From a virus, in IMG/VR virus record IMGVR_UViG_3300038752_000135, positions 1-25,746 of that record: DNA of 25,746 nucleotides; one strand, 5' to 3'. Every line of letters starts with the position of its first letter. Position 1 is the stretch's first letter. The notes under the pieces are model-generated. The model saw only the letters and a list, made by a program, of their open reading frames with translations, ran no database searches and was not told the DNA's origin. The translations under genes and the position numbers were made by a program. Of the stretch, positions 14,954 to 25,746 are shown piece by piece.

Positions 14954-15787
14954 ATGCCAACATATCTCTGGACTGGATCGTCAAGCGCTGACTGGAAGAC
15001 CGCGGGAAACTGGTCGGGAGGGGTCGTTCCCGGATCTGGGGATACCGTGATCTTCAACACGGGCGCTCAAACCATCACCGGGACATCGATTACAGCAGTC
15101 TCCGAGATCAAGATTCTTGAAGGATTCACGGGGAGTCTGGGAACCAGCGGAACACCCCTAGCGGCATCTGCGACAGATCTCTTCATCTCGACCGAGTTTG
15201 GGACCGTCAACCTAGACGGGACATATACGACGGCACACATCACCCAGACTAAGGCGACGGATTCGGCTGTCGTCTTCGGATCCTCGAGCAGTATCACGAC
15301 CCTGAGAGTCACCGGGGGGCTGGGGACTATCTCTGTCTCGTCCTCAACCATCACAAATGTCGAGGTATCGGGTACTCCATCAATTGAAATCCAGATCCTC
15401 GCCGCGGCCGGCAACTTCAACTCTTTGACAATGGATTCGGGGATCGTCCGGTCTTCGGAAAGTTTGACGGGAACAGCCAACGTCTCCGGGGGAGAGTTCC
15501 GCCTGGAATCTGCGGCCGGGGCTGCGACCGTCAACATCTACGGGAAGGGCGTCGTCTCTCACCAGTCCAGCGGGACGATCACGACGGCCAGCGTCTTCGA
15601 TCGGCCAAGTGTCTTGGACTTCTCAGAGAACACCTCAACGGGAGCGACGGTCACGACGACCAACCTATTCGACGGAACCATCAACGAGAGAAACGGATCT
15701 GCGAACGTCACATTCACCAACGGGATCTCGGTCAAGGGCAAGGGCTCGATTCTGGCTGATGTCGCTCGGACTCTGACGGTTTCCTGA
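14954..15787 (+). CDS. Beta-helix tail adhesin-like protein
   Basis: Probable receptor-contacting tail protein. The 277-residue product is made of short hydrophobic strands alternating with Ser/Thr/Gly turns, the look of a right-handed beta-helix. It opens with YLWTGSSSADWKTAGNWSGG then PGSGDTVIF, a motif (WTG..S.DW.T..NW..G..P...D..IF) frequent at the start of beta-helix passenger proteins and surface proteins, including those of planctomycetes. Residues about 4-80 align with residues 252-322 of the next gene. There is no signal peptide, which fits a virion part rather than a secreted protein. No clear ribosome site precedes ATG 14954. Confidence 0.65.
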   Translation: MPTYLWTGSSSADWKTAGNWSGGVVPGSGDTVIFNTGAQTITGTSITAVSEIKILEGFTGSLGTSGTPLAASATDLFISTEFGTVNLDGTYTTAHITQTKATDSAVVFGSSSSITTLRVTGGLGTISVSSSTITNVEVSGTPSIEIQILAAAGNFNSLTMDSGIVRSSESLTGTANVSGGEFRLESAAGAATVNIYGKGVVSHQSSGTITTASVFDRPSVLDFSENTSTGATVTTTNLFDGTINERNGSANVTFTNGISVKGKGSILADVARTLTVS

Positions 15788-17337
15788 TGGCTCTTTGGTC
15801 GCCTTCAAATCTCGGAACCGGCATTCTCACGGCTTGGTACAAAGGGGACTCGATCACCGGAAATGACGGGGACGCTGTCTCGGCTTGGAGTGATTCGAGC
15901 GGCAACGGGAACAACTTGGCTCAGGCATCCTCCGCTCGGCAACCAACACTCCAGACCGACGAGCTGAATGGTCTCCCCGTCGTCCGCTATGACGGGACGA
16001 ATGACATCCTCTCCGATTCTGATATCGCGGCTCTGGATGTCGGGACCGGGGACATATGGGTCGCGACTGTCTTCAAAGCAACCGACGACGGGACGGCCAA
16101 CTTCATCTTCGAAAAAGGGAACACCCAGTTTGGTGTCGTCAATACGGCCGCGGGGATACTCCAGATCCGACTCGGGGGTACAAGCAACATCCCAACCCAA
16201 TCCGATGGCAACTGGTCCAGAACTGAGTTTGTCTTGGTCACAGGCTCGAGGGTCTCTTCAACCTGTACCGGCTTTGTCAATGGATCCGCCATGACAACGA
16301 CCAACACGACGAATACCGGATCAATCTCAAACTCGGACGTACTCGACGTCGGGGCCGCGGCTGTTGGCGGGAATCCCCTGACCGGAGATATCGCCGAAGT
16401 CCTGGTCGGAGGCGCTACGCTGACGACCGCTGATCGACAACGTCTCGAGGGGTATCTCTGTTGGAAATGGGGTCTCCAGGACAATCTCCCTTCGGATCAT
16501 CCTTACAAGAACTTCCCTCCAACGTTCTCGCTCCCGACCGTCTATTGGACTGCCGGCGGCAACCCTGCCGATGTCTCAGATCCTGACAACTGGTCCGACA
16601 ATTCGGTCCCAGATGCTTCGAAGAAATGCGTCTTCAATGACAAGTCCAGCTCGATCACACTGGGAACCCTGACGGCTGGGGAGGTACGGTTCTCGGATGG
16701 CTTCTCTGGGGACTTTGGTACTTCCTCGGCGCCTCTGGACATCACAACCGATCTTCTGACAATCAACTCGCCAGACGCCTCGATCAATGTCGACTCCAAA
16801 TCCATCGGGGAGATATTTATCGGCGGCAACGGTCGGGGAGTCCATGTCGAAGGCACCGCGACTGATGTCTTTGTCGAATCCAAAGACTCGATCCAACTGG
16901 CCCTAACTTCGATCCAGAGATTGGAAGTCCGACACAGCTCCGGCGCCGGAGGGGTCATCTCGACACAGGCCGCAACCAACACCGTCGTCGGCTACGGGGG
17001 CAACCTGACGGGGAAGAGCGACCTTTCGGCGGTCGAAGTTTATGAAGGCGGATATCTCTTCCAAGATTCGACCTTCGATCTCAATGGTCTGCAGATCTTC
17101 GGAGGATCTGTTTTGTTCCATGGCTCCGAGATCACAAGAACGACGAACCAGATCTACGGGGGTCTTCTGACAATCAGGGGAGCGACTGGACAAAAGGTCG
17201 ATCTGAACGCCTTCAAGGTTTACAACGGCGGAACTTTGGATCTGTCGGATTCCCCGATCGCTGAGTTCTCTGGAACCATTACCAGTTTTGGCGGGAAAGT
17301 CATCCTCGGGGATGGACACTCTGTCGCTCTATCCTGA
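15787..17337 (+). CDS. Tail adhesin: LamG-like lectin domain fused to beta-helix
   Basis: Probable receptor-binding protein with two parts. Residues about 1-245 are a concanavalin/LamG-like sandwich: LTAWYKGDSI, VSAWSDSSGNGNNLAQ near 31-46, PVVRYDGTNDIL, and the signature end GDIAEVLVGGATLTTADRQR, then LEGYLCWKWGL and LPSDHPYKNFPP (about 200-245), which is common in large bacterial surface and phage tail proteins and probably binds sugars. Residues about 250-516 are a beta-helix related to the previous gene (for example GFSGDFGTSSAPL against GFTGSLGTSGTPL). ATG overlaps the preceding stop by one base. It is the last gene of the structural operon. Confidence 0.75.
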   Translation: MALWSPSNLGTGILTAWYKGDSITGNDGDAVSAWSDSSGNGNNLAQASSARQPTLQTDELNGLPVVRYDGTNDILSDSDIAALDVGTGDIWVATVFKATDDGTANFIFEKGNTQFGVVNTAAGILQIRLGGTSNIPTQSDGNWSRTEFVLVTGSRVSSTCTGFVNGSAMTTTNTTNTGSISNSDVLDVGAAAVGGNPLTGDIAEVLVGGATLTTADRQRLEGYLCWKWGLQDNLPSDHPYKNFPPTFSLPTVYWTAGGNPADVSDPDNWSDNSVPDASKKCVFNDKSSSITLGTLTAGEVRFSDGFSGDFGTSSAPLDITTDLLTINSPDASINVDSKSIGEIFIGGNGRGVHVEGTATDVFVESKDSIQLALTSIQRLEVRHSSGAGGVISTQAATNTVVGYGGNLTGKSDLSAVEVYEGGYLFQDSTFDLNGLQIFGGSVLFHGSEITRTTNQIYGGLLTIRGATGQKVDLNAFKVYNGGTLDLSDSPIAEFSGTITSFGGKVILGDGHSVALS

Positions 17338-21690: not shown

Positions 21691-22067
21691 TGGCGAAGAA
21701 GCGTCGGAACTGCGATCGGGTAAACCCGCTCACGAAGACGACGCTCGAGGGCCAAGGCTATCTCGTCCAGAACGTCGAGCAGGTCATCCCAGGGACTCGA
21801 GGGATCAAGCGGGACTTGTACGGCTTCATCGACTTCTTGGCGATCAATCCGTTTGAGACTTTAGCGATCCAAGCGACTTCGGACTCCAACGTCGCCGCTC
21901 GGAAGAACAAGATTCTCGGAGAGAAGAGGGAAAACTCTTGGGACTGGCTCTCATGCCCTGGAAGACGTCTCGAGATCTGGGGCTGGGGATGGAATCAATC
22001 CGAGAAGTCCTGGTATCTCCGGGTTATCGAGATCACCTTGGGGGACTTTGATGTCGGGGCCGACTGA
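21690..22067 (+). CDS. PD-(D/E)XK-like nuclease-fold protein
   Basis: The 125-residue product resembles a small phage and bacterial group with a restriction-endonuclease-like core: RDLYGFIDFLAI near 41-52, with D48 in the usual acidic position, then LAIQATSDSNVAARKNKI at 58-75, where the expected ExK is replaced by QxT, and a following RLEIWGWGW strand. The QxT variant occurs in several nuclease-fold families and may still be active or may only bind DNA. The preferred start is ATG 21690, which overlaps the previous stop; GTG 21687 is possible. Its size suits a Holliday-junction resolvase-like or VRR-NUC-like enzyme. Function is inferred. Confidence 0.55.
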   Translation: MAKKRRNCDRVNPLTKTTLEGQGYLVQNVEQVIPGTRGIKRDLYGFIDFLAINPFETLAIQATSDSNVAARKNKILGEKRENSWDWLSCPGRRLEIWGWGWNQSEKSWYLRVIEITLGDFDVGAD

Positions 22068-22458
22068 CGACGAGATCTTGGAGTATCTCAACGTCTACGC
22101 GTCCAAAGCCCAACGGGAGCGGAAGTTCCCTCTTTGGTCCCGTGATGACATCGTTTCCGAATGCTGGCTCATCTGGTCCGCGATCGTCATCCGATACGGC
22201 GACGAGATCGATTCCAGATGGCGGCAACTTGCCAAGACGGCATTCAACCGAAGGCTCCCCGATCTGTATCAAAAATCACTCGGGAAGAAGATCCGAAGGT
22301 CCAAGGATCACAAACGCTCGTATCACACTGACCTGGATCTCGGATATGTCACGCCGGCGAAATCCGAACTACCAGAAGCAAAGGACGACATCTTCGCCTT
22401 ACTTCTCCGAGCAGTTCAAGCCATCAGTCGACTCGCCAAGCATGCAAAAGACGCCTAA
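22051..22458 (+). CDS. Putative sigma-like transcription regulator
   Basis: The 135-residue product is all-helical and basic. Its segment SRDDIVSECWLIWSAIVIRY, followed by RQLAKTAFNRRLPDLYQKSL, resembles region 2 of sigma-70-type factors ('eDlvQe.w...' then 'yl...a.nrl.dyyR'). A promoter-binding region 4 is not evident; the C-terminal 30 residues are a simple amphipathic helix. A late-gene activator would fit the place between the early and lysis modules. A GGGGG run at 22040-22044 precedes ATG 22051. The gene overlaps both neighbours by 17 bases. Alternative: a small terminase-like or unrelated helical DNA-binding protein. Confidence 0.4.
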   Translation: MSGPTDDEILEYLNVYASKAQRERKFPLWSRDDIVSECWLIWSAIVIRYGDEIDSRWRQLAKTAFNRRLPDLYQKSLGKKIRRSKDHKRSYHTDLDLGYVTPAKSELPEAKDDIFALLLRAVQAISRLAKHAKDA

Positions 22459-22669
22459 ACCAACTCCAGAGTCCGTCTCACTCTCCTCCAAGGACTGGGT
22501 CGGTCTTCTCGCCATTTCGATGACAATCATCTCCGCCTTCTTTATGGCTTACCAGCGACACGACCGCCTTTTGTCTGAGATTGCGGTCTCTCAACAACTC
22601 CAGGGGGAGAGAATCAACCGTCTCGAGAACAAGCTCGACGCTTTGGAACGGGACCTCCGCGGCCGATGA
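22442..22669 (+). CDS. Small membrane protein with coiled coil (lysis or envelope)
   Basis: The 75-residue product has one likely membrane helix (about 19-37, WVGLLAISMTIISAFFMAY) followed by a coiled coil (41-75, with heptad spacing in LLSEIAVSQQLQGERINRLE). Single-span proteins with a coiled coil are common in phage lysis cassettes (XhlA-like or holin-like small proteins), but XhlA has the reverse order. The long upstream reading frame is a shadow; ATG 22442 is the sensible start. It overlaps both neighbours, and its stop shares bases with the next ATG. A holin accessory or spanin-like role is inferred from context. Confidence 0.6.
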   Translation: MQKTPKPTPESVSLSSKDWVGLLAISMTIISAFFMAYQRHDRLLSEIAVSQQLQGERINRLENKLDALERDLRGR

Positions 22670-23067
22670 GATATCTAGCGTACATCTCAGGATTCCTCCT
22701 GACGGCTTGCAACACGACCGGAGGATCATCCATCCCTTTACCCAAGAGCGGGCCGAGGTCGATCTCGGTCCCGCAACTGACGACCCCAGGCTCAGATATA
22801 GCAGCGACGCTCTGGCCTCTCAGCTTTGCGGGGGCTCTTGCGATTTTGGCGGGGATTGTGTCGATGGTTCTGATGCCTGGGCCGATGGGCAGGCGGACGC
22901 TCTTCATTGGGATCGGAATCTCCCTCGTGCCTCCGATGTTCCTCGCACTGAACGAAACACTCCTAGTACCGGCGGCGATCGTCGCTCTGATCATCGGCGC
23001 CGGAATGTTTATCTCAACCCTCAGAACAGTGAAAAAGGTCTCCCCATGTACACCGTCTTCTCGATAA
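22666..23067 (+). CDS. Lipobox-bearing multi-pass membrane protein (holin candidate)
   Basis: The 133-residue product starts with a typical lipoprotein signal, MRYLAYISGFLLTAC, with the lipobox LTAC and acceptor Cys15, followed by a short polar segment (NTTGGSSIPLPKSG). Three likely membrane helices then follow: about 48-70, 79-95 and 99-119. A lipoprotein with three further spans is unusual. The size and topology suit a holin, and the N-terminal helix might also work as an uncleaved first span. It overlaps the preceding gene by four bases (ATGA) and the following micro-gene by 22 bases. Its C-terminal tail is basic. Confidence 0.55.
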   Translation: MRYLAYISGFLLTACNTTGGSSIPLPKSGPRSISVPQLTTPGSDIAATLWPLSFAGALAILAGIVSMVLMPGPMGRRTLFIGIGISLVPPMFLALNETLLVPAAIVALIIGAGMFISTLRTVKKVSPCTPSSR

Positions 23068-23162
23068 TCGGCTCCCTCGTCCTCGGCTTTGTGTTGGGCA
23101 TGGTTCACAAGCAACGCGTCCTCAAAAAGCTTTGCCGGCATGACGGCGACTGCGTGAAGTGA
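23046..23162 (+). CDS. 38-residue single-span membrane micro-protein
   Basis: The 38-residue product is MYTVFSIIGSLVLGFVLGMV then a basic tail ending in CRHDGDCVK. A membrane helix of about 18 residues is followed by a positive, cysteine-containing cytoplasmic end. AAAAGG at 23033-23038, seven bases before ATG 23046, and the GTGA overlap with the next gene at 23159 support it as a true gene although it is very short. Small single-span proteins in this place often serve as holins, antiholins or spanin partners. No family is recognised. Confidence 0.6.
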   Translation: MYTVFSIIGSLVLGFVLGMVHKQRVLKKLCRHDGDCVK

Positions 23163-23641
23163 CTTGTCCGGAGTGCGATCGTCGGCACGCTCAAGAGCAG
23201 AAGAAGCTTTCCGACTGTGAGGGCCGATGCAAGGAGATGAGCGTCAAGAACCAGAGACTTTCGATTGCTCTGGCCGTCCTCGCAACTCTGGTCGGCAAAG
23301 AATCACTCGATTTTGCCTTAGGTCTTTCGTCAACTCTGGAAGCAGTATCTTTTGGCTCTCCTGACCCAGTTGGGGCAAGTCCGACGATCGTGTCCGCGTC
23401 GCCAGATGAGTCGATGAAAACTCCAGCCGCATCAATCAGATCAAGCTACATCTCTGCTGATGAAAGTGTTCTCTTTTCGGATGTTCCTCCGATTATTCCC
23501 CTGCTTTATGATCAGGAGATACTTACGGGATACGGCCTTTCACCTATCTTCTTTTCAGACCCTGACCAGATTTTCGTCCCAACAAGCGGGATGATGCTTC
23601 TAGCGGGTCTCTCAACTTTCCCCAGGAGAAGACGCAAATGA
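23159..23641 (+). CDS. Cysteine-motif protein with PEP-CTERM-like sorting tail
   Basis: The 160-residue product starts MTCPECDRRH with a second Cys pair at 20 and 24, a possible small metal-binding module. A short hydrophobic stretch (about 34-46, LSIALAVLATLVG) may be a signal anchor. The middle (57-135) is low in charge and rich in Ser, Pro and Asp, as in exported linkers. The end is VPTSG (140-144), hydrophobic MMLLAGLSTF and RRRRK (156-160). This copies the order of PEP-CTERM signals recognised by exosortase: a small proline motif, a membrane segment and a basic tail. GTG start, overlapping the previous stop. A surface- or envelope-targeted phage protein is suggested. Confidence 0.55.
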   Translation: MTCPECDRRHAQEQKKLSDCEGRCKEMSVKNQRLSIALAVLATLVGKESLDFALGLSSTLEAVSFGSPDPVGASPTIVSASPDESMKTPAASIRSSYISADESVLFSDVPPIIPLLYDQEILTGYGLSPIFFSDPDQIFVPTSGMMLLAGLSTFPRRRRK

Positions 23642-24003
23642 TCCATCGAGTCACCGGAGACGGACGCCTGGTCCCGCTCGGCAAACGAGATCGGGGGCCA
23701 GAACCCCGACGAGACAACTCCTCTCGCCCGAATCGGGGACATCGATGGATGAAGCTCCGAGCCCAGATCCTCGCTCGAGATGCAGTCTGCAAAGTCTGCA
23801 ACCGGGCCGAAGCTGTCCAGGTTGATCACATCATCCCGCTGTCACAGGGCGGGGGCGACGAATACACCAATCTTCAAGGGATTTGTCTGGAATGTCATAA
23901 GGACAAGACCGCTCGCGAACAGATGTCTCATCTTCCGCGTATTGAGACCGCATCGGAGGTCATGTCGACGGTCGTCCGTCACAAAAGATGGGAGACGAGA
24001 TGA
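23638..24003 (+). CDS. HNH endonuclease
   Basis: The 121-residue product has a full HNH motif: CKVC (C51 and C54), VDHIIPLS with D63-H64, GGGDEYTNLQ with N78, and CLECHKDKT (C83, C86, H87). The two CxxC pairs hold a structural zinc. In cos-type phages such as HK97, a small HNH protein lies next to the terminase genes and helps cleave packaged DNA. Here it is upstream of the terminase pair if the molecule is joined end to end, with two genes between. ATG 23638 has AGGAG at 23624-23628. A homing enzyme is the alternative, but it is a stand-alone gene in the operon. Confidence 0.88.
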   Translation: MIHRVTGDGRLVPLGKRDRGPEPRRDNSSRPNRGHRWMKLRAQILARDAVCKVCNRAEAVQVDHIIPLSQGGGDEYTNLQGICLECHKDKTAREQMSHLPRIETASEVMSTVVRHKRWETR

Positions 24004-25070
24004 TTCTTGCCGGACTGATCCTCTTGGGCTCACTCGACAACGGAGCCAAACCCTCAGATCCTGATTCTGTCGCGGTCTGGGTCGATGATCTTGGCCGGCT
24101 GACGCCTTTCGGCCGAACTTTTGACGTCTACATTCAAACCGGCTTCGATCCAGAGTTCAGCAAGCCAAACGGGGATCCTCGGCCGCCTTATATGATCGGA
24201 TCGACACGGGGCAACGAGTCCCCTTCTAGGTCTTTTGGATGGGCTCTCGAAGGTCCTGTCTTCAAAAACCGGAACGACAATCTGTACCCTTGGCTCGACA
24301 ACTGTCTCGAATGCATCGAGTACGAGGAGGCTCGCTCTGGCTTCGGAGACTGGGAACTTCCAGACGGGACGGTCATCCCTTGCGACATACCTGGGACTCC
24401 TTGGGATTGTGTCCAATCGAACCCATACCAGCGAACCCGATATCTTGGCGCCAAGTTCACGCCGGTGAATTGGAAGTTCGAAGGGCCGGAAGGATGCTGT
24501 CCCAGACAAGCCGACCTGATCGACCTGGAATATCTCTGGTGTGATTCTTGGATCCTGCATGGTCCCGTAGGGCGAAAGTATGGGAACCTGAACCCTTCGT
24601 ATCGCTACCCCCTGGTCCAGCAACAACATAAGGACCTGATGGACTCGCCTGTCCTGAAGTTCTGGCTCCCTCTACCGACGGGACAAGTTCCCTTCCAGCA
24701 ATGCTGCCAATCGGCTTCTCAGATCGACTTTGGGGATCTCATCCGATGGGATGCGGATGTCGACTGGGAAAGCGAAAAGCACCCGGGATCGTTTCACATA
24801 GCTCGATTCACGGGGCCGGATTACTTCTCTTCGGGCGGGGTCATTCGCTGGGCATGCGGCAATGGCTACCCGTGCGACCCTTCGCCTTACTCGGTAAATT
24901 ACTACGCCGACAACTCATGCCCTTCAGATCTGAACGAGGACGGCCTCGTCGGCTTCGAGGATCTCCTTCAAGTCCTCTCAGACCTTGCCGGCTTCCGATA
25001 TCACCCCCAGACAAACAACGGCTTCCAGGCGATCCTCAAGGTCCTCTCGGAATGGGGCGAGTGTTCCTGA
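24000..25070 (+). CDS. Secreted dockerin-like protein of unknown function
   Basis: The 356-residue product (from ATG 24000) opens with a hydrophobic signal-like segment MILAGLILLGS and ends with a dockerin-like repeat at about 307-356: CPSDLNEDGLVGFEDLLQVL, whose D-N-D-G-D residues form an EF-hand-like Ca loop, then a second degenerate half FQAILKVLSEWGEC. Planctomycete secreted proteins often end this way. The middle 290 residues have about a dozen cysteines (CLEC, CC twice), likely disulphides, but no family I know. ATG 23988 is an alternative. The start shares bases with the HNH stop. A virion surface part or an exported host-interaction protein is possible; it is followed by a terminator. 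Confidence 0.6.
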   Translation: MILAGLILLGSLDNGAKPSDPDSVAVWVDDLGRLTPFGRTFDVYIQTGFDPEFSKPNGDPRPPYMIGSTRGNESPSRSFGWALEGPVFKNRNDNLYPWLDNCLECIEYEEARSGFGDWELPDGTVIPCDIPGTPWDCVQSNPYQRTRYLGAKFTPVNWKFEGPEGCCPRQADLIDLEYLWCDSWILHGPVGRKYGNLNPSYRYPLVQQQHKDLMDSPVLKFWLPLPTGQVPFQQCCQSASQIDFGDLIRWDADVDWESEKHPGSFHIARFTGPDYFSSGGVIRWACGNGYPCDPSPYSVNYYADNSCPSDLNEDGLVGFEDLLQVLSDLAGFRYHPQTNNGFQAILKVLSEWGECS

Positions 25071-25097
25071 AACGAAAGAACCCCCGACCAGCGGGGG
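25071..25097 (-). terminator. Terminator between convergent dockerin and lysozyme genes
   Basis: CCCCCG (25081-25086) and CGGGGG (25092-25097) form a 6-bp GC stem with a five-base loop. Read on the minus strand, it is followed by TTCTTTCGTT, a good T-rich tail, so it should end lysozyme transcripts. On the + strand the tail is CTCCCTCCTT, which is weaker, so it may serve both directions. Confidence 0.75.
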
Positions 25098-25122
25098 CTC
25101 CCTCCTTCGCAACGGGGCGAGA

Positions 25123-25572
25123 TCAGTCGAACTGGTCCAAGACCTTACAAACTTTGGCCCAGTATCGATCGAGTCTCTCTTTCTTCTTGCCGGTCGCCTT
25201 GGCGGCTTGGGGGCCTCCGTTGTGCAGGCGAGCCCAGAACTCCTCCTGGGACATGCCATCCGGCCGGCGGTCGTCTGATCCCCAGCGGGCCATATAGGCT
25301 CGGAAGACCTGAACCGAGAAGTCCAAGTCGAAGACCGCATCGGGCCATCGACCTGGTACTCGACTGTCTGCGAGATAACCCTTGGAGATGCAAAGCGGGC
25401 CGGCGGTCCATCCCCGATCGGCGAAGAAGGGCTCGCCTCCGGGATGCTGATTACTCTCAACGACCCAGATGGCGATCTCGAGGTCGGTCATGCCAACCTT
25501 GCCGGCAGGAGTTTCGAGGGGAGCTGAGAAGACCGAGACGATGCCGGTCACGATGGAACTGATGTTGATCAT
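25123..25572 (-). CDS. Lysozyme-like endolysin
   Basis: Probable peptidoglycan hydrolase for host lysis. The 149-residue product has an N-terminal hydrophobic segment (MINISSIVTGIVSVFSA) that may be a signal or SAR anchor. The enzyme domain follows: IWVVESNQ with probable catalytic E39, AGPLCISKGYLADS (58-71), which corresponds to the 'GplQIs..yw.Da' block, VFRAYMARW, and the end motif WARLHNGGP then KERLDRYWAKVCKVL. This is the phage/invertebrate-type lysozyme-like pattern. Minus-strand ATG at 25572 is preceded by AAAGGA with a seven-base spacer. It is the only minus-strand gene, facing the dockerin gene, and ends just before a terminator. Own promoter expected in 25573-25746. Confidence 0.8.
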   Translation of the reverse strand: MINISSIVTGIVSVFSAPLETPAGKVGMTDLEIAIWVVESNQHPGGEPFFADRGWTAGPLCISKGYLADSRVPGRWPDAVFDLDFSVQVFRAYMARWGSDDRRPDGMSQEEFWARLHNGGPQAAKATGKKKERLDRYWAKVCKVLDQFD

Positions 25573-25746
25573 GTTGGATTCCTTTCTGGCTCGAAGCCAT
25601 GAGCATCATCGGTCGATTGTGTCGGAGACTTTACAAACAAACACAAACAAACAACCCCCTCTAACGGCTCAAAAACCCCGATTTTGGAGCAAAACCTGCG
25701 TTTCTAGGCTGCTAGGGGGGGTCAATTTTGTGACAGCCTGCTAGAC
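25573..25746 (-). promoter_or_regulatory. Upstream control region of the lysozyme gene, window end
   Basis: Non-coding and poorer in GC than the rest. It holds the tandem repeat at 25633-25652, a G run at 25715-25721, an inverted repeat TTTTG-GAG-CAAAA at 25682-25694, and AGGCTG (25706-25711) with CAGCCT (25734-25739) as inverted arms. On the minus strand TTGACC lies about 25722-25727, but I see no matching -10 at normal spacing. A leftward promoter is inferred from the lysozyme orientation. Confidence 0.4.
25633..25652 (+). repeat. Tandem 10-bp repeat ACAAACAAAC
   Basis: Two perfect copies in a row at 25633-25642 and 25643-25652, themselves built of AAAC units. They lie about 60 bases upstream of the lysozyme start on the minus strand, in the AT-richer control region. 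It could be an upstream element of its promoter, a melting region, or a simple-sequence repeat. Confidence 0.8.

Follow-up and report, generated by a model that had tools for sequence, protein, structure and literature searches.

Can a phage encode a protein whose C-terminus is addressed to a sorting enzyme of its host? The question is raised by an open reading frame (ORF) at 23159..23641 (+) of a 25,746-base IMG/VR virus record, the whole of which was analyzed and is called the window here. The window carries phage genes for a terminase large subunit (phrog_9, E 1e-172), a major head protein (phrog_10), a tail tube and minor tail proteins. The ORF starts with GTG and encodes 160 aa with the C-terminus DQIFVPTSGMMLLAGLSTFPRRRRK. 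We propose, with a probability of about 0.68, that it is an accessory gene whose product is an envelope protein of the infected cell and makes use of the host's exosortase. Its GTG shares bases with the stop of the small ORF before it (GTGA), and its own stop overlaps the following ATG at 23638, indicating that the gene is part of an operon-like series. The features of this region are as follows.

22442..22669 (+), small membrane protein with a coiled coil, weakly Rz/spanin-like (phrog_739, E 0.021, suggestive only)
22666..23067 (+), lipoprotein-like protein with several hydrophobic segments (sequence; LTAC box by eye)
23046..23162 (+), small single-TM ORF of 38 aa that overlaps the start of the gene under study (sequence; conserved in the sister phage L023)
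23159..23641 (+), the gene under study, family A3, 160-aa protein (ORF and translation; 40 distinct homologues in phage loci)
23159..23260 (+), N-terminal Cys-rich segment, residues 1-34, CxxC-x13-CxxxC, predicted to be cytosolic (invariant Cys, low dN/dS)
23264..23296 (+), N-terminal hydrophobic stretch, residues 36-46, IALAVLATLVG (Kyte-Doolittle; kept across the family)
23576..23638 (+), C-terminal sorting-like tail, residues 140-160, VPTSGMMLLAGLSTFPRRRRK (sequence, tail HMM, regular expression, dN/dS)
23638..24003 (+), HNH endonuclease gene between the gene under study and DK (PF01844, E 7.8e-13)
24000..25070 (+), DK, Cys-rich secreted protein whose C-terminus carries a dockerin-like segment (alignments A2 and A5 of the family)
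24918..25067 (+), dockerin-like segment of DK, CPSDLNEDGLVGFEDLLQVL...SEWGEC (motif scan; profile search)

The product of 22666..23067 had no significant family match; a gene resembling it occurs near the module in another phage, L002. DK probably starts at the ATG at 24000, within a longer ORF from 23988. The HNH gene shows a weak likeness to the HNH part of IscB, and L023 has an HNH gene too.

A preliminary description, made from the sequence of the window, had assigned to the C-terminus the layout of a PEP-CTERM signal, consisting of VPTSG, a hydrophobic stretch and RRRRK, and had looked to homologues for conservation of this tail. The translation was exact, and a tripartite regular expression (PxxG/A/S, a hydrophobic stretch and three or more K/R at the end of the protein) matched 28 of 34 distinct A3 tails versus 2 of 4149 other C-termini from the same contigs, so that both the layout and its conservation hold. 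The layout of the window tail exceeds chance. The same expression matched 21 of 22 tails in a second phage family, A4, and 0 of 73 DK tails. The hydrophobic part had been considered shorter than usual; measured from the motif Pro up to the first Arg, the window has 15 residues versus about 16 in Phycisphaerales tails (e.g., VPAPGALALLGIAGLAGRRRRG), which is not unusual.

The likeness to PEP-CTERM profiles was borne out only in part. Neither the full-length window protein nor its isolated tail matched the Pfam and NCBIfam PEP-CTERM models (PF07589 and TIGR02595), and these stock models thus gave no support to the expectation for the window protein itself; the isolated tail of the L002 relative reached 16.2 bits with TIGR02595 (cut-off 16), with only 8.7 for the full L002 protein. 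Because the tails of the inferred host mostly lie below the Pfam cut-off as well (only 3 of the 15 listed pass), we built a clade-trained tail HMM from 49 tails of the inferred host genome and its relatives, which are exosortase-bearing and of Phycisphaerales type; 48 remained after removal of one spurious row (L101_32). In this model, which is partly circular for the P-x-P motif because its training tails were chosen by a P-x-P regular expression, the window tail scored 16.0 bits, a value reached by 0 of 4,222 control C-termini (maximum, 7.0). Without the spurious row, the score rose to 17.4 bits, the top of A3, with controls at most 7.5. The window score was reached by 1 of 2000 full composition shuffles and by 36 of 2000 (1.8%) shuffles that retained RRRRK, whose mean was about 7 bits; only 5 of the 34 A3 tails beat all controls. 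The window protein thus shares with exosortase substrates the tail layout and a similarity to the tails of an exosortase-bearing clade, and its tail is, in our estimate from sequence comparison, quite likely to be a real exosortase-type signal.

To follow the tail across relatives, we gathered A3 members from other phage contigs and from further contigs carrying DK, obtaining 40 distinct proteins in all. These have a common plan, in which a Cys-rich N-terminus and a short hydrophobic stretch are joined to the C-terminal tail by a highly variable linker. Among 23 aligned A3 sequences, C3, C6 and C20 are invariant, and PxxG is fixed in position while the hydrophobic residues vary (examples of tails are IVPASGLGLLGIAGFSRSRRRK, FVPESGALLLFGLTAIRPRRRK, IPEAGVLPLVGIVGLFPRRRRS and VVPAPGFLGFIPVIFFMGGRRRRR). 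In three subgroups, dN/dS of the N-terminal segment was the lowest or low (0.04-0.13), and that of the tail was 0.03, 0.09 and 0.43 versus 0.21, 0.41 and 0.87 for the linker. By these ratios, the tail is under purifying selection while the linker diverges. Three members (L039:6599-7033, L041:2354-2788 and L043:10071-10499) have tails that have lost both the Gly and the cluster of Arg (VPNINPLVPLSIFFSEKEKT); such tails are perhaps decayed or differently used. Exactly the ORF under study is missing from the sister phage L023, which matches window 22060-23162 at 81% and 23635-25746 at 88% identity with nothing between the matching flanks, and this clean absence indicates that the gene is an accessory cassette. 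A3 was found in none of the 397 genomes of the inferred host class, and isolated phages gave a single insignificant match to the protein. No enzymatic domain was found in it, and a defence-family scan gave no match.

The host was inferred from the dockerin-like segment of DK. We scanned all GTDB species genomes with the degenerate pattern DGxVGFxDLLxVL, derived from this segment and matching once in the window, and obtained three loci, all of them in a single Phycisphaerales MAG, SS_bin_71 (e.g., CVADLTDDGIVGFQDLLVVLGLWGDC). Planctomycete secreted proteins with dockerin tails are the closest known parallel to DK, whose tail, CPxDLxxDGxVGFxDLLxVL...WGxC, matches Phycisphaerales dockerins. In the 397 genomes of the class of SS_bin_71, the DK profile likewise matched with its dockerin end only (8 genomes), and the DK body was not found. 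SS_bin_71 also encodes a weak, near full-length homologue of A4 (E 3.3e-5). The host is therefore probably a planctomycete of Phycisphaerales type, an assignment that derives from the dockerin segment and not from a prophage or CRISPR link. The preliminary description had made its reading depend on a host with exosortase: SS_bin_71 has one (E 4e-44), as do all 61 genomes when its 60 nearest relatives are counted, which agrees with that reading for a host clade that is itself inferred. No exosortase was found in the 43 phage records tested, many of which are fragments.

A second family of phage proteins, A4, gives further information on such tails. A4 proteins have a Sec-like signal by eye (MFKRTLALAITTSAMA-DLAG), a body unrelated to that of A3 and a canonical tail (e.g., VPIPAPGSLALLGLSCIGKGRRRK). 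Their genes (including L050:5081-5704, L047:3437-4057, L034:9076-9708, L033:2214-2852 and L038:1146-1778) adjoin DK in other phages, at a gene position equivalent to that of A3. Full-length A4 proteins matched PF07589 with E values of 0.0019-0.018, below the Pfam cut-off. With both a signal and a tail, A4 is closer to proper PEP-CTERM membership, although it is still below the curated cut-offs at full length, and it is a stronger case than the window gene for phage-encoded exosortase substrates.

For the window protein, we do not claim PEP-CTERM membership. Signal peptides occur in about 97% of PEP-CTERM proteins, and extra transmembrane segments are absent apart from one small exception (PMC1569441). 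The N-terminus of the window protein departs from a canonical Sec signal peptide: 34 Cys-rich residues precede a hydrophobic stretch of 11 residues. This stretch has a Kyte-Doolittle value of 2.6 over the 11 residues and only 1.53 over 19, and may be a short signal-anchor or signal-peptide-like element. What we suggest is that the protein works like a PEP-CTERM substrate. The short hydrophobic stretch would take the chain into the Sec route, leaving the Cys-rich N-terminus in the cytosol while the variable linker is exported. The tail would then lie within the inner membrane, its VPTSG facing outward and its RRRRK facing the cell interior, and host exosortase would cleave the protein or transfer it to the cell surface or the exopolysaccharide layer. 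This last step is proposed because the tail matches host tails and exosortase is present in the host clade. An accessory role, for instance in changing the surface of the infected cell (as in superinfection exclusion), appears likelier than an essential function in the virion or in lysis because the gene is absent from L023 and the presumably exported linker evolves fast. Surface remodelling or exclusion as the specific purpose is put forward tentatively, at somewhat below even odds.

The tail might instead be a mere membrane anchor with a positive-inside flank, in a small two-ended membrane protein such as a lysis or spanin helper that involves no sorting enzyme. The gene adjoins genes for small membrane and weakly spanin-like proteins, some A3 members have degenerate tails, and shuffles that keep the layout still score in the tail HMM, as this explanation would have it. 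An anchor would not account for PxxG being kept at a fixed place while the hydrophobic residues around it vary, for host PEP-CTERM tails being the best match of the window tail, or for a canonical PEP-CTERM tail on an unrelated protein at the equivalent gene position in other phages, and a helper role sits poorly with a gene that L023 dispenses with; we regard the anchor as unlikely. An LPXTG-type or GlyGly-type signal, read by sortase or rhombosortase and not by exosortase, is far less probable still. Of the stock models, those for LPXTG and MprA/GlyGly come nearest to the isolated window tail. The LPXTG model TIGR01167 gave 14.4-15.0 bits with the window tail and 17.6 with that of L002 (cut-off 15.9), the MprA/GlyGly model (MprA_tail) gave 15.2-15.7 bits with the window tail (cut-off 19.7), and one A3 relative has YLPETGG. 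The window tail is below both cut-offs, however, and its motif is VPTSG; most A3 members lack the GG and the Thr of the LPXTG motif; and sortase was found in 0 of 61 genomes of the inferred host clade and rhombosortase over the curated cut-off in only 3 of 61 (G004 not among them), against exosortase in every one.

A further alternative accepts the tail as a genuine exosortase signal and assigns the protein to lysis, as a bridge between inner membrane and envelope or in loosening the surface layer, and not to exclusion or remodelling. Lysis-like genes are its neighbours, no endolysin was recognisable among the window ORFs tested, and a possible signal-anchor at one end with a sorting tail at the other would suit such a bridge. 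Against this, L023 retains the neighbouring genes without the gene under study, and the protein has no detected enzymatic domain. We consider a lysis function doubtful, if somewhat less so than a mere anchor, and retain the reading of an accessory envelope protein handled by host exosortase.

In this preferred reading, the protein would join DK with its host-type dockerin tail, and A4 elsewhere, in a phage gene set with planctomycete surface-targeting tails. These observations suggest that such viruses, whose hosts are probably planctomycetes, decorate or remodel the surface of the infected cell via host sorting machinery. A broader proposal, which we hold to be about evenly balanced, is that various tailed phages infecting Phycisphaerales-type planctomycetes have in common a set of exchangeable genes whose products all have host surface tails (PEP-CTERM-like or dockerin), thereby commandeering two display routes during infection, as a planctomycete counterpart of prophage surface-conversion and exclusion systems.

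Several known systems resemble the one proposed. In Gram-positive bacteria, prophages encode LPXTG surface proteins, such as SasX, that are displayed by host sortase. The window protein would be similar in being a phage product shown via a host sorting enzyme, but the enzyme class and the envelope are different, and the inferred host clade lacks sortase. VPDSG-CTERM (TIGR03778), which we take to be an exosortase-type variant tail of Verrucomicrobia, gave no listed match to the phage tails. The closest parallel is the PEP-CTERM/exosortase system (EpsH, Xrt; TIGR02595, PF07589; PMC1569441), which has the same order of motif, hydrophobic helix and basic cluster at the extreme C-terminus and likewise places one tail on otherwise unrelated proteins; the phylum Planctomycetes is known for PEP-CTERM proteins, and the enzyme is present in the inferred host clade. 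The window protein differs in having VPTSG in place of PEP or PxP, in scoring below every curated model, in its Cys-rich 34-residue N-terminus followed by a short hydrophobic stretch, and in being phage-encoded. In the open-access literature on PEP-CTERM or exosortase in connection with phages, and on PEP-CTERM and auxiliary metabolic genes, we found no account of exosortase substrates encoded by phages; one title that looked relevant deals with genes of the host. If the proposal is true, it would tie phage biology to the exosortase pathway and give a marker of the host for uncultured phages of planctomycetes as well as natural tail variants for testing exosortase recognition, and what a phage gains from changing the planctomycete envelope would become testable.

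Finally, we characterized DK itself. There are 75 distinct copies; for 50 of them, the fetched locus also contains an A3 or A4 gene, which lies within 300 bp in 28 cases. Their carriers have different terminases (phrog_9 in the window, phrog_38 in L045 and phrog_2 in L044), and another carrier, L034, is T4-like by its scaffold (phrog_237) and helicase (phrog_16) genes. Judging from these genes, DK occurs in several unrelated phage lineages. In L193, L204, L206, L207, L213 and L216, two to three divergent DK paralogues stand in tandem, with a canonical PEP-CTERM-type gene immediately after them. The DK body gave nothing significant in Pfam, NCBIfam, PHROGs, PDB or BFVD, conserved peptides retrieved no DK relatives from GTDB, and isolated phages had no match to DK or A4. 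An AlphaFold model built with 24 close sequences was uninformative (pLDDT 41); with 59 diverse sequences, pLDDT was 81.6 and pTM 0.83, and this model matched nothing in PDB or among viral models (BFVD) at E <= 0.001. The idea, formed by eye, that DK is an NlpC/P60-like endolysin was dropped, there being neither a Pfam or PHROG match nor a PDB or BFVD fold match. DK may have a novel fold and may serve as a marker gene for phages of planctomycetes. Relative to the window copy, the first 24 aligned DK copies, which come from unrelated phage lineages, have identities of 66-95%. LamG-like virion structural proteins (phrog_10356; window 15787-17337 and L026:5748-6548) are also common to otherwise different DK-bearing phages.
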